Assembly (NCBI RefSeq): GCF_000214375.1 | Contig: NC_015578.1 | Span: 2,728,001 to 2,792,000, forward strand | DNA length: 64,000 nucleotides | DNA from: Treponema primitia ZAS-2 | GTDB taxonomy: Bacteria; Spirochaetota; Spirochaetia; Treponematales; Breznakiellaceae | Reading direction: 5' to 3' | In this document: positions 35,324 to 43,360 of the stretch, piece by piece | Numbering within the stretch: the first letter of the stretch is position 1 | How the letters are laid out: every line of letters starts with the position of its first letter | Made by a program: the position numbers and the translations under genes | The notes under the pieces: generated by a model | What the model was told of the DNA's origin: nothing | The model's input: the letters and a program-made list of their open reading frames with translations, nothing else | Database searches by the model: none

Positions 35324-36211
35324 TTGAGGAAAGCCGCTTTCTTTTTTATAGCAATTTTTCTTGTCATAGAAGTGTCCGGGCAGGAGATTGGCATCACCGG
35401 GTCCGTGGAATGGGAAGGGATGGATATCCACACATCCGTGGCCCTGCGCCTGGCTTCCGTGGGGATACGCTTGCCCACCGGCCGGGCCCAGGCGGAAGAG
35501 CTGATCAGCACCGAATACCCCCGGCTGGTGCGGCCCTCCCTGCTTTCTATACCGGTGGATTCCTCCAACACCGTGGAGGACCTGATTAATTCCGGAGAAT
35601 TCTCCCTGCGCACCGTGGGGAGCATTGCCCTATCCGCCAAGCGCATCCCCCCGGCCCTGTCCACGGACCTGGCCTTCCTCACCGCCAACTACACCATCGA
35701 CCTTACCCGCATAGGGGCGGCCCTCATCCGGCACAGTGCCCCCATGGAAGTGGCCCGGCCCCTGCGGCCCATCCCTGCGGCGGCATATACGGGAATCATC
35801 ATCATCGCCAATGAGGCTCTGCCGATCCACGGCCGGAACGCGGGCGCCAGGGTTCTCCCCTGCCTGTTCCCCAAGGTCTGGGATACGGAAATGAACCTAA
35901 TCTACGAACGAAATATGCTGTACAACGAAACCGCCCAAAACGCTGGTATGGTCCGCTATGTATCCGAAGAGAGTATCTTCCGCCCCACCCCTTCAGGGCT
36001 GAGCCCGGAACTGAGCGCCCTGGTGGGAAATAACCCCCTGCGCATCATAGCCCGAGCTGTCTACGGCATACGGCCCACGGACCCTATCATCGACCGGCAG
36101 GATGCCCTGACCATCCTGTCCTCGGATGCAAATATCCGGCTCCTCAGGGAAGGCCGGGTCGCCCTGGTATTGCACCGGGATGTGCTGAGAAACCCTATTA
36201 CCAGCGAATAA
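35324..36211 (+). CDS. Secreted protein of unknown function
   Basis: The product is 295 residues from a TTG start (GAGGG upstream). The signal peptide ends near VSGQE, and the rest is a soluble, probably periplasmic, beta-rich protein with no family I recognise. It follows the lytic transglycosylase by 14 nt, in the same operon, so a cell-envelope role is likely. The next gene has its own promoter. Confidence 0.7.
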   Translation: MRKAAFFFIAIFLVIEVSGQEIGITGSVEWEGMDIHTSVALRLASVGIRLPTGRAQAEELISTEYPRLVRPSLLSIPVDSSNTVEDLINSGEFSLRTVGSIALSAKRIPPALSTDLAFLTANYTIDLTRIGAALIRHSAPMEVARPLRPIPAAAYTGIIIIANEALPIHGRNAGARVLPCLFPKVWDTEMNLIYERNMLYNETAQNAGMVRYVSEESIFRPTPSGLSPELSALVGNNPLRIIARAVYGIRPTDPIIDRQDALTILSSDANIRLLREGRVALVLHRDVLRNPITSE

Positions 36212-36224
36212 TTTTTTTGTCGCG

Positions 36225-36253
36225 TTGACAGCCCCACTCTGCCCGGCTAAGAT
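36225..36253 (+). promoter_or_regulatory. Consensus promoter of the peptide ABC operon, leaderless
   Basis: TTGACA (36225-36230), 17 nt, TAAGAT (36248-36253). The ATG is at 36260, 6 nt after the -10 box, and there is no Shine-Dalgarno sequence. Confidence 0.75.
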
Positions 36254-36259
36254 AAAATC

Positions 36260-38077
36260 ATGAAAAAGTTGGCGATGATTGTGGTCCTGGCCGTTCTGGC
36301 CCTTTCCTGCTCCAGAAATGACGAGCTTTCCATGGAAGATATTAGCGCCCTCACCGGGGCGGGGGTTACGGAAATCCTGGCAAAGACCAGTGCAAAGCCC
36401 TGGCGGGGAGAGGAATTCACCCCCGGAAAACTGGGCGGAACCTGGAACAGTGTGATGGATCAGGACCCGAAAACGTTTAATATCCTTATCGCCCAGCAGG
36501 ACAATATAAGTGCAGGGATAGTAAATTCCATGCTGGACTATCTGGTGGATTACGATCCCCTCACCAAAGAATGGAAACCCCACTGCGCGTCCTTTGAGAT
36601 CATCCCGGATGAAAAAACTGATACTCTGGATCTGATCTATACCCTCCGGGATGATATGTACTGGAGTTTTTACAATTCGAATAGAAAAATTAAAGTTACC
36701 AGCGATGATGTAATCTTCTGGTACAATGAAATTGACGGTGACCCCGCGTTCCAGAGTTCTGGCTATTACCAGCAGTTCCTCACCATGGAGGACGGCACTG
36801 AGGCGCACATTGATATTGAAAAAATTGATGATCGGCGTTTTGTGTTTCACTTCCCCCGGATAGTGGCGGAACCCCTGCTGGCGACCAATACTGACATAGC
36901 GCCCCGGCTTGACTACGAGCAGGCCAAACGGGAAAAGGGCGTCCAGGGGGTACAGGACCTGTTCAGCGTGAACACCGACCCGAAAAACATACCTTCCATG
37001 GGGAAGTGGTTTCTGGCGGAATACACCCCCGGGCAGCGGCTGGTGTTCAAGCGCAATGGCGATTACTGGGACAGGGATAGCAAGGGTACCGCCATTCCCT
37101 ACTACGAAGAACAAATTGTGCGGATCATCCCGGATGAGAACACACAATTCCTGCTCTTCAAGGAAGGGCAGATCGAAACCTATACCGCCCGCCCGGAAGA
37201 CCTGGATGAACTGGTAACCAAGGCAAACAGCGATTATACGGTATTCAACAACGAAGGCGCCCTGAGCGCGAGTTTCTGGACCTTTAACCAGAACCCGGCC
37301 AACAACGAAACTCCTCAGTACGAATGGTTCACCAAAAAAGAATTCCGCCAGGCCATGAGCTGCCTCCTGAACCGGGACCGGATCATCTACCAGGTGTACC
37401 GGGGGCTCGCGGCGCCGAAACTCAGCTTCTTCCCCGAGCCGAACCGCTTCTACGATCCGGAAATAGTCCTGCAATATACCTACAGTCCGGAACAGGCGGA
37501 AAAACTCCTAGCCGGTATAGGCATCAAAAAGGACAGCGCAGGGATAATGCGGGACAGCCAAAACCGCCCCATTGAATTCAATTTAACTATCCGTTCCGAA
37601 AGTGCGGTGATGAACGATATTGCCTCTATTATCAGTGATGAATGCGGTAAGCTGGGCATCAAAATAAATATACGGGTCCTGGATTTCCAGAAACTGGTGG
37701 AACAGATATTCAATACCTTTGACTGGGAGTCGATCATCATGGGGCTTTCGGGCTCCCAGATATTCCCCAGCCAGGGAAGCAATGTCTGGGCCTCAGGCGG
37801 CAACCTCCACCTCTGGTATCCCCAGCAAAAAAGCCCGGCCACGGACTGGGAAGCCCGGGTGGACTACCTCTACAACGAGGGGGCCTTTACAGTGGATCCC
37901 CAAAAGGCAAAGGCCTATTGGGATGAATTCCAGGGGATACTCCTGGAACAGTGCCCGGTAATTTACCTGGTACGGCCCAGGAGCTTTGAAGCCCTGCTGA
38001 ACCGCTGGAATCAGTCGAATGTCTACTTTGACAATCTCAACGGCTTCGAAATAACCCATATCTTCCTGAATCAGTGA
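36260..38077 (+). CDS. Peptide/oligosaccharide ABC substrate-binding lipoprotein (SBP family 5)
   Basis: This 605-residue lipoprotein (lipobox VLALSCSRN) has the family 5 extracellular solute-binding fold of OppA/DppA: LIYTLRDDMYWSFYN, SDDVIFWYNEI, WFLAEYTPGQRLVFKRNGDYW and FRQAMSCLLNRDRI. It captures peptides or similar ligands for the permease-ATPase genes that follow. It heads a four-gene operon. Confidence 0.92.
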   Translation: MKKLAMIVVLAVLALSCSRNDELSMEDISALTGAGVTEILAKTSAKPWRGEEFTPGKLGGTWNSVMDQDPKTFNILIAQQDNISAGIVNSMLDYLVDYDPLTKEWKPHCASFEIIPDEKTDTLDLIYTLRDDMYWSFYNSNRKIKVTSDDVIFWYNEIDGDPAFQSSGYYQQFLTMEDGTEAHIDIEKIDDRRFVFHFPRIVAEPLLATNTDIAPRLDYEQAKREKGVQGVQDLFSVNTDPKNIPSMGKWFLAEYTPGQRLVFKRNGDYWDRDSKGTAIPYYEEQIVRIIPDENTQFLLFKEGQIETYTARPEDLDELVTKANSDYTVFNNEGALSASFWTFNQNPANNETPQYEWFTKKEFRQAMSCLLNRDRIIYQVYRGLAAPKLSFFPEPNRFYDPEIVLQYTYSPEQAEKLLAGIGIKKDSAGIMRDSQNRPIEFNLTIRSESAVMNDIASIISDECGKLGIKINIRVLDFQKLVEQIFNTFDWESIIMGLSGSQIFPSQGSNVWASGGNLHLWYPQQKSPATDWEARVDYLYNEGAFTVDPQKAKAYWDEFQGILLEQCPVIYLVRPRSFEALLNRWNQSNVYFDNLNGFEITHIFLNQ

Positions 38078-38084
38078 GAGTTCC

Positions 38085-39185
38085 GTGAATCGTGTCGCAG
38101 CCGCAGCCCGAAGAATCGCAGCATTACTATTCCGGCCCTTTTACCTTTTTAAACAAAAGGCGCCGCTAACTGCGTATATTCTGAACAGGCTTGTTACCAT
38201 GGCGGTGATGCTCTTTCTCCTGGGCTTCGCCGTATTCGGCCTCATGGAGCTTGCCCCGGGGGATATTGTGGATCAGATCATGATGCAGCAGCTTTTCTCG
38301 GAAGGGGATTCCCAGAGAGGGGCAGTGAGGAACCAGCAGGCCATGTCCATGGATCAGCTTGAAGCCCGCCGGGCAAGCCTGGGCCTGGACCAGCCCTTTT
38401 ACATACAGTACCTCCGCTGGCTTGAACGGGTTATCCTCCACCATGACCTGGGGACGAGCCTCATATCCCGGGCGCCGGTTTCCTTCCTCATCGCCTCCCG
38501 CCTGGCAAATTCAGTGTTACTGAACATCATCTCCCTGGTGCTGATAACCTTCTTCTCGTTTTTTCTGGGGGTATACTTTTCCACCAAGGCGGGGACCCAT
38601 GCGGATCTGGCGGTTACCTTCTTTGCCCTGGTACTCCACGCCTTTCCGGGGATGCTCCTACTGATACTGTTGCAGCTTTTCGCTTCGGTTAGCGGGCTCT
38701 TTCCGGTCACCGCTTATCCCCCCTTCCCCTTTGCCTCAAACCCCCCAGGGTTTGTGTTTTCCTACGCACATCATATCTTTCTGCCACTGCTGGCCTCCTT
38801 TCTGGGAGGCATTGGGGGAACCCTCAGGATGATCCGGGCCACCATGCTGGACCAGCTGGGGCAGCCCTACATTACCAGCATACGGGCACGGGGCATAGGC
38901 GAATGGCGGGTCTACTTCCACCACGCATTCCGGAACACCCTGAACCCCTACATCACCGGGAGCGCCAACCTCCTGGCAAGCCTCTTTTCAGGCTCATTGA
39001 TTTTAGAAATCATCTTCGCCTATCCCGGCATAGGCCGGCTCATGTACGAGGCGGTACTCCAGGAGGACATCAACCTGGTGCTGGCCAATATCATGTTCGT
39101 ATCCTTCCTGGTTCTCTTAGGCATGGTCCTGGCGGACATACTCCTGGCCCTGGTGGATCCCCGTATCCGCTACGGAAAGGATTAG
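38085..39185 (+). CDS. OppB/DppB-type ABC permease
   Basis: This 366-residue inner-membrane permease from a GTG start has about six helices and the EAA-like loop RARGIGEWRVYFHHAFRNTL before the last two helices. It starts 8 nt after the binding-protein gene. It forms the channel with the permease part of the next, fused, protein. Confidence 0.92.
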   Translation: MNRVAAAARRIAALLFRPFYLFKQKAPLTAYILNRLVTMAVMLFLLGFAVFGLMELAPGDIVDQIMMQQLFSEGDSQRGAVRNQQAMSMDQLEARRASLGLDQPFYIQYLRWLERVILHHDLGTSLISRAPVSFLIASRLANSVLLNIISLVLITFFSFFLGVYFSTKAGTHADLAVTFFALVLHAFPGMLLLILLQLFASVSGLFPVTAYPPFPFASNPPGFVFSYAHHIFLPLLASFLGGIGGTLRMIRATMLDQLGQPYITSIRARGIGEWRVYFHHAFRNTLNPYITGSANLLASLFSGSLILEIIFAYPGIGRLMYEAVLQEDINLVLANIMFVSFLVLLGMVLADILLALVDPRIRYGKD

Positions 39186-41508: not shown

Positions 41509-42492
41509 ATGGCTTTGATCAGCGTAACAAATCTGCGTAAACGCTTTAACCTGGAAGCAGGCTTCTTCGCCCGGTTCGGCCGCTTCGTCTATGCGGTGAA
41601 TGGCGTTTCATTCACCATTGGCCAAAACGAAACCTACGGCCTGGTAGGGGAATCGGGATGCGGCAAAACCACCACCGCCCGGCTCCTGGTCAGGATGTAC
41701 GAAAGCGACGAAGGCACCATCAGCTTTCAGGACACCATTGATGTGGGCTCCCTCAAAGGTTCCTCTTTGAAAAAATACCGTGAACAGGTAAAGTACGTGT
41801 TCCAGGACCCAGCCCGTTCCCTTAACCCACGGATGAGCATTTACAAAGTACTCACCGCCGGGTACCGCCATTCCACCCGCTGGCCCGGCGAAAAACAGGC
41901 CCGTGAAGAAGCGGAGGCGATCCTGGAAGAAGTAGGCCTGGGCGCGGCAGACCTGGAACGGCGGCCCGCAGAATTTTCCGGGGGCCAGCGTCAGCGCATC
42001 TCTATTGCCCGGGGCCTCCTGCCCCAGCCGGATCTCCTGATCTGCGACGAAGTAGTTTCCGCCCTGGACGTTTCCATCCAGGGGCAGATCCTCAACCTGT
42101 TAATAGACTTAAGGCAGCGGCACAATCTCTCCTTCCTGTTCATCGCCCACGACCTCAAGGTTGCCTCCTATTTTTGCGACCGTATCGGCGTTATGTATCG
42201 GGGCGAACTTATGGAAGAGGCGCCGGCAGCGGACCTTTTCCGGAACTGCCTGCACCCCTATACCAAGCTGCTCTTTTCTTCTGCGGGAAGCCTTAACAGC
42301 AATCCTACGGGGCCTACCACAGCCAGAGAACCCCTAAGGCTCAGCGGAGAACTGCAAACCCCGGTCACGGAGCTTACAGGCTGCGCCTTTGCGGAACGCT
42401 GCCCCCTGGCGGAGGAACGCTGCCGCCGGGAACACCCGGAGATGCGGGAAACCGGGTGGATGGGGCAGAAGGTGCGATGTTTTATTTTGTAA
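41509..42492 (+). CDS. OppF/DppF-type ABC ATPase
   Basis: This 327-residue ATPase has Walker A GESGCGKT at 47-54, FSGGQRQR, CDEVVSALD (Walker B) and the C-terminal cysteine-rich CAFAERCPLAEERC motif of the family. It pairs with the ATPase half of the preceding fusion protein. Its ATG follows the TAG of that gene without a gap. Confidence 0.93.
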   Translation: MALISVTNLRKRFNLEAGFFARFGRFVYAVNGVSFTIGQNETYGLVGESGCGKTTTARLLVRMYESDEGTISFQDTIDVGSLKGSSLKKYREQVKYVFQDPARSLNPRMSIYKVLTAGYRHSTRWPGEKQAREEAEAILEEVGLGAADLERRPAEFSGGQRQRISIARGLLPQPDLLICDEVVSALDVSIQGQILNLLIDLRQRHNLSFLFIAHDLKVASYFCDRIGVMYRGELMEEAPAADLFRNCLHPYTKLLFSSAGSLNSNPTGPTTAREPLRLSGELQTPVTELTGCAFAERCPLAEERCRREHPEMRETGWMGQKVRCFIL

Positions 42493-42571: not shown

Positions 42572-43360
42572 TTATCTCAAGACTGCGAATCTTCCCCGAG
42601 GCCAGCGCCCCGCCTCCATCTCCCGGTGACGGATCGTAACAGGGCACCCCTTTTCTTGCATCCTGCTGCCCAGGGCTTCCGCCATGGCCACTGATCGGTG
42701 CTGTCCGCCGGTACAGCCTATGCAGATCCTCAGCAGAGGCTTTCCCTGTTCCCTGAATGAACGGATAAGGGTTTCTGCAAGGAGTACAAGGGCTTCCAGG
42801 GTTTTATGAGAATTTTCAAAGCTAAAAACATAGCCCGCGCAGGCTTTGTCTCTTCCGGTAAGGGGCCTGAGGGAATATACGTAATAGGGATTGGGGATAA
42901 ACCGGACATCGATCACCGCATCCCCTGAGGCAATCCCGTAGCGGTAACCGAAGGACAGGATCTCCAGGGCGGTATCCGCCCGGTAAACACGGTTTTCCCC
43001 AAGGGCGGCAACCCGGTCCGCTTCTTCCTGAACGTTCATATACCCGCTGTTAAGGATAAGATCCGCCCGGGACCGGAGGGGCTCAAGGATCTTCCGGCAG
43101 TTTTCCAGTTCTGCGGCCCATCCTTCCGGGTAAAGCCCGGGGGCCTGTCCGATTGGAATATTTTCTGTTCCCGCCCGGCGTTCAAGCAGGACCGAATCCC
43201 CGGCTTCCATGAACACCAGGGCCGCTTCCGGAGGAAGGTTTTCCGGCTCAGGGCCTGCCGCTATGAAGAGTTCTTTCCCCACGAGGCCCCTGGTCTTCAG
43301 TTCTTCTAATAATGTGGTACGTCCCGAAAAAGGATACCCCGCCAATACAACCGGAATCAT
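42572..43360 (-). CDS. rapZ: RapZ/YvcJ-like protein with degenerate P-loop
   Basis: This 262-residue protein has the conserved C-terminal RapZ domain (VIDVRFIPNPYYVYSLRPLTG and IGCTGGQHRSVAMAEAL). The N-terminal nucleotide-binding half is altered: the Walker A region reads GYPFSGRTT, with Arg in place of the catalytic Lys. RapZ proteins sense or regulate amino-sugar synthesis or RNA decay. It is the last gene after a three-gene ABC importer (27-nt gap), though the two functions are probably unrelated. Confidence 0.85.
   Translation of the reverse strand: MIPVVLAGYPFSGRTTLLEELKTRGLVGKELFIAAGPEPENLPPEAALVFMEAGDSVLLERRAGTENIPIGQAPGLYPEGWAAELENCRKILEPLRSRADLILNSGYMNVQEEADRVAALGENRVYRADTALEILSFGYRYGIASGDAVIDVRFIPNPYYVYSLRPLTGRDKACAGYVFSFENSHKTLEALVLLAETLIRSFREQGKPLLRICIGCTGGQHRSVAMAEALGSRMQEKGCPVTIRHREMEAGRWPRGRFAVLR

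Follow-up and report, generated by a model that had tools for sequence, protein, structure and literature searches.

Promoter-to-ATG spacing predicts a leaderless solute-binding protein gene in Treponema primitia

The window analysed here, a 64,000-nucleotide stretch (positions 2728001–2792000) of the 4,059,867-base, single-contig genome of the cultured termite-gut species Treponema primitia (strain ZAS-2), contains an ABC-transporter gene which very probably makes a leaderless mRNA. Judging from sequence features, it is highly likely that RNA synthesis starts at or near A36260, the first base of the start codon, from an abutting sigma-70-type promoter, giving a putative operon mRNA devoid of a Shine-Dalgarno (SD) motif, on which a solute-binding protein (SBP) would be translated by the leaderless route and a permease by coupling. 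The leaderless start put forward in the original prediction is well supported by the position of the promoter, by conservation of that position when the gene is compared among relatives, and by a genome-wide, ATG-specific peak at the same spacing, the RNA start itself being predicted.

Promoter, start codon and putative operon

The promoter consists of a TTGACA hexamer, a 17-nt spacer and the hexamer TAAGAT, followed by the six bases AAAATC and the ATG of the SBP gene (Table 1). This layout is read directly from the DNA and confirms the original description, including its lack of a ribosome-binding site, as a search for the SD core motifs GGAG, GAGG and AGGA found none within 4–18 nt 5' of the ATG. 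Transcription usually starts at the seventh base after the -10 hexamer, and AUG is the preferred start codon of leaderless bacterial genes. The SBP gene shows sequence features of the leaderless class, namely an ATG start codon, no SD upstream and a TANNNT whose first T (36248) falls within the approximately 10–12 bp before the start codon that characterise TA-led genes. In the survey that describes these genes, the first T lies about 12 bp before the start codon (PMC3160421), and at the SBP gene this distance is exactly 12 bp.

Table 1 Features of the SBP gene, its promoter and its putative operon, in window positions.
Feature	Position	Strand	Basis
-35 hexamer TTGACA, 6/6 matches	36225–36230	+	sequence, promoter scan
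-10 hexamer TAAGAT (TANNNT; 4/6 matches), ending 6 nt 5' of the ATG	36248–36253	+	sequence, scan; position kept in relatives
Predicted transcription start, the A of the ATG and seventh base after the -10	36260	+	spacing
Family-5 extracellular solute-binding protein, putative lipoprotein (MKK...LALSC), 605 aa	36260–38077	+	SBP_bac_5, E 8.9e-53; lipobox read by eye
OppB-type permease, starting with GTG 7 nt beyond the SBP stop, without SD core motif	38085–39185	+	profile searches, start inspection
OppC-type permease fused to OppD-type ATPase, 771 aa	39193–41508	+	profile searches
OppF/DppF-type ATPase	41509–42492	+	profile searches
Upstream ORF, 295 aa, ending 48 nt 5' of the ATG; may give rise to read-through RNA	35324–36211	+	no Pfam/NCBIfam match

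The hexamer pair alone occurs at chance frequency in this region, where five promoter-like pairs were found between 33000 and 40000 against 4.0 ± 2.2 in shuffled sequences; it is the placement at an ATG that exceeds chance expectation. Because promoters of such quality are found at chance frequency here, the case rests on position and conservation. Use of another start codon was considered and rejected: three further in-frame starts near by have no SD core motif, as judged by eye, and the MKK sequence and lipobox fit the first ATG. An unusual 5' fold was also rejected, given ordinary z-scores of 0.31 and 0.26, and no Rfam match to a riboswitch or other RNA element was obtained in the window at gathering cut-offs.

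The 605-aa protein scored 180.1 bits against the SBP_bac_5 profile, whose curated cut-off is 32.4, and stayed below the NCBIfam equivalog cut-offs for Opp, Dpp and Nik substrate-binding proteins, the best being Opp4A with 89.8 against 650 bits. The earlier designation as a peptide-binding ABC protein is supported at the level of the family, the peptide substrate being putative. Spacings between the SBP, OppB-type, OppC-OppD fusion and OppF/DppF-type genes are 7, 7 and 0 nt. In 11 of the 13 loci inspected, window included, the OppB-type permease start is without an SD core motif, and so absence of an SD by itself proves little and is not special to the SBP gene. A leaderless layout was seen at the permease start in none of the 13 loci, and a permease with neither an SD nor a leaderless layout fits coupling to the SBP gene. 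The fusion gene gives one continuous match in locus L132 as well, the two halves match in different frames in L123, L125 and L127, and in L124 only the permease half was matched. Further downstream, on the reverse strand (42572–43360), lies a gene whose product carries a C-terminal RapZ domain, its N-terminal part giving a partial RapZ-like match.

Conservation of the layout in relatives

A search of 38 genomes returned 10 near-full-length SBP matches, one of them that of the window itself, at 55–100% identity. Scanning named genomes added 10 loci; the ten relatives with a record title are nine Treponema sp. and one Spirochaetales metagenome-assembled genomes. We compared 18 loci, window included, having dropped L009, which has no 5' end, and L128, which covers the same contig and region as L004. 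For the relatives we picked start codons manually, guided by signal peptide and lipobox while the upstream sequence was visible, and several loci have other in-frame starts.

A TANNNT ending 5–8 nt before the chosen start, together with a -35 matching in at least 4 of 6 positions, was observed in 15 of the 18 loci, a count which may be biased towards promoters because the upstream sequence was in view, and which comes from loci that are not independent, since they share descent and the promoters of L123 and L125 are nearly identical. When the same 60-nt segments were shuffled preserving dinucleotides (2000 rounds), the mean number of passing loci was 0.25 and the maximum 3. An SD core motif was found in the SD region of the SBP gene in none of the 18 loci. 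The closest relative (L002, 79% protein identity) has exactly TTGACA-17-TAAGAT-6-ATG. The three loci failing this strict test, L005 (gap of 10 nt), L127 (gap of 9 nt) and L131 (gap of 6 nt), each have a -35 of 3/6, and the leaders of L005 and L127 would be a few nucleotides long; L006 passes with only a poor -10 (TACCCT).

The surroundings of the gene differ between these loci. Neither the upstream ORF nor its neighbour with an SLT domain gave a tblastn match at 1e-8 in the loci of the 17 relatives (0.3 to 6 kb upstream covered), and the promoter is therefore kept in different surroundings. Downstream of the SBP gene, no permease match was found in L005 (1.5 kb covered), L126 (0.7 kb) or L129, L130 and L131 (4–6 kb), yet in the last three the -10 is still placed six nucleotides before the SBP start, so that the layout appears to accompany the SBP gene.

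A minority class in the genome, family and order

We sampled 1.264 Mb of the genome in 61 stretches, window included, in which a simple gene caller of our own predicted 833 genes. TANNNT motifs with a -35 of at least 4/6 preceded near-start ATGs 24, 14 and 14 times at gaps of 6, 7 and 8 nt, giving 52 pairs where 13.1 were expected from gaps of 20–49 nt. In the same sample this peak was absent from GTG (2 against 4.9 expected) and TTG (3 against 4.7) candidates, and 5273 internal ATGs showed no peak either, with 4, 12 and 3 pairs at gaps of 6, 7 and 8 nt. At the level of genes, 50 of 707 matched, compared with 10, 11, 12, 14 and 20 in five shifted search windows, an excess of approximately 30–40 genes or about 5% of sampled genes. 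Most of the genome relies on SD sequences, which peak at -9 to -13 across 464 kb sampled, and a 16S 3'-end sequence with the anti-SD CCTCCTT is found at two places in the genome, as located by the end sequence alone. Taken as sequence patterns, these numbers put the SBP gene very probably in a leaderless minority class of a mainly SD-using genome.

The stricter pattern TTGACA-N16..18-TANNNT-N5..7-ATG occurs 35 times in the whole genome, against 4 times for the same pattern backwards and 13 times for a gap of 11–13 nt. A gap of 26–28 nt (28 sites in the genome, several with an SD-like stretch before the ATG) was unsuitable as a control, as it includes ordinary leadered genes, and the gap of 11–13 nt was taken instead. 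With exact TTGACA, 39 genomes of the family contained 1236 sites at gaps of 5–7 nt and 396 at 11–13 nt, the former being more numerous in all 39. Among 58 genomes of the order, 17 of which belong to the same family, the numbers were 1385 and 510, with more sites at 5–7 nt in 56; the exceptions were G028 (4 against 5) and G072 (4 against 6). The highest count in the 39 family genomes, 129 TTGACA-TANNNT-gap 5–7-ATG sites, was that of the 3.1-Mb genome G048, in which the leaderless class may be much larger.

Four of five family-5 binding-protein paralogues in the T. primitia genome (L133, L134, L135 and L136) carry an SD core motif upstream of a plausible start. In the fifth, L137 (C1:1782500–1786500), TACTAT ends 5 nt before the ATG of a MNKKE start, preceded by a -35 of TTAAAA (4/6) and with no SD core motif; such a motif is found before a GTG seven codons further on. 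L137 is possibly a second leaderless binding-protein gene of the genome, and a leaderless-like layout is thus not specific to the gene at 36260 among these paralogues. The original prediction had also held that strong leaderless expression of a highly expressed type of gene, an ABC binding protein, would be unusual. The SD motifs of the four paralogues bear this out in part, but the leaderless-like L137 does not, and the layout is a regular minority in genome and family and has been described for spirochaetes. As to strong expression, codon adaptation of the SBP gene ranked at the 68th percentile when compared with 711 other sampled genes, and because this index separates poorly (mean of 0.709 for the reference against a median of 0.671 for the others), it neither supports nor excludes high expression. 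The reference consisted of 19 called genes of the ribosomal-protein region, picked on the basis of their position alone.

Competing explanations and significance

A chance match to the promoter consensus in front of a start codon could be entertained, given that hexamer pairs of such quality are found at chance frequency in the region, but it is contradicted by the conservation test and by the genome-wide position peak, and we regard it as extremely improbable. The promoter could also be a minor one, with most transcripts reading through from upstream genes and the SBP start lying on a leadered RNA without an SD, where initiation would depend on coupling to the upstream ORF, S1 or an open structure. 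This ORF runs in the same direction and stops 48 nt upstream, and as the scan listed no terminator between it and the SBP gene, read-through could yield some RNA of this kind. Nevertheless, relatives in which neither upstream protein was matched still keep the promoter layout, and read-through predicts an unconstrained distance between -10 and ATG, whereas this distance is constrained. We therefore consider that reading improbable.

A short leader, with RNA starting 1–4 nt before the ATG, is a variant of the preferred explanation and its odds overlap with those of the latter. A scatter of one or two bases is usual for transcription start sites, and gaps of 7–10 nt are found in L003, L005, L007, L008, L010 and L127. 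However, a gap of 6 nt is the commonest both among the loci of the relatives and in the genome sample (24 sites against 14 each at 7 and 8 nt), which is why we place the start on the A of the ATG and see a short leader as a rather unlikely, if serious, candidate. Either way, the RNA would have no SD. According to the preferred explanation, a leaderless mRNA, RNA polymerase would be directed by the adjoining sigma-70-type promoter to start at the A of the ATG or a few bases away, and the mRNA of the SBP-permease-permease/ATPase-ATPase operon would begin with AUG, or nearly so, and be free of an SD. Translation of the SBP would then proceed by recognition of the 5'-terminal AUG, a step which in other bacteria is carried out by the 70S ribosome, and the permease, 7 nt downstream and lacking an SD core motif, should be translated via coupling or reinitiation.

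Leaderless genes have been recognised before as a minority class among bacteria, and among spirochaetes too, and what is new here is a layout conserved at one ABC-transporter gene. They were reported in 6 of 18 spirochaete genomes, at 1.8–6.9% (Zheng et al. 2011, PMC3160421); that article is not known to report gene-level conservation for spirochaetes, whereas here the layout of a single gene, -35 included, recurs in 15/18 loci. In Leptospira interrogans, dRNA-seq mapped approximately 440 RNAs with 5' UTRs shorter than 10 nt, half of them shorter than 2 nt, and genes for amino-acid transport and metabolism were over-represented among leaderless genes at 37 °C (PMC5243855). The authors of that report found no E. 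coli-like promoter motif, in contrast to the near-consensus -35 and -10 predicted from sequence at the SBP gene. In Deinococcus-Thermus, a TANNNT a few bp before the ORF is the -10 of leaderless genes, and an added -35 raises transcription; leaderless genes make up about one third of genes in D. radiodurans (PMC12340547), unlike the minority of about 5% of sampled genes found here. A survey of non-SD genes detected no leaderless or S1-type signal on average in six spirochaete species (mean PC3 of -3.25), Treponema being unmentioned in its account of them (PMC5397173); where leaderless genes are a minority and most of the genome relies on SD sequences, such a survey would hardly reveal them. 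Our search of the literature on leaderless spirochaete genes, Borrelia included and most subscription papers outside it, found no start-site map for Treponema or T. primitia.

One speculation, which we think unlikely as it stands, is that the front of this operon dispenses with classical SD initiation because a leaderless AUG would load 70S ribosomes that continue to the SD-less permease, with the layout having been selected in gut Treponema for uptake under conditions that favour 70S initiation.

In Treponema, the SBP gene offers a clear and testable case of a single gene whose leaderless layout has been retained among relatives, and the data indicate that leaderless initiation is used regularly, by a minority of genes, throughout the family. 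When these genomes are annotated, a promoter that directly adjoins an ATG can be used as evidence for the start codon.
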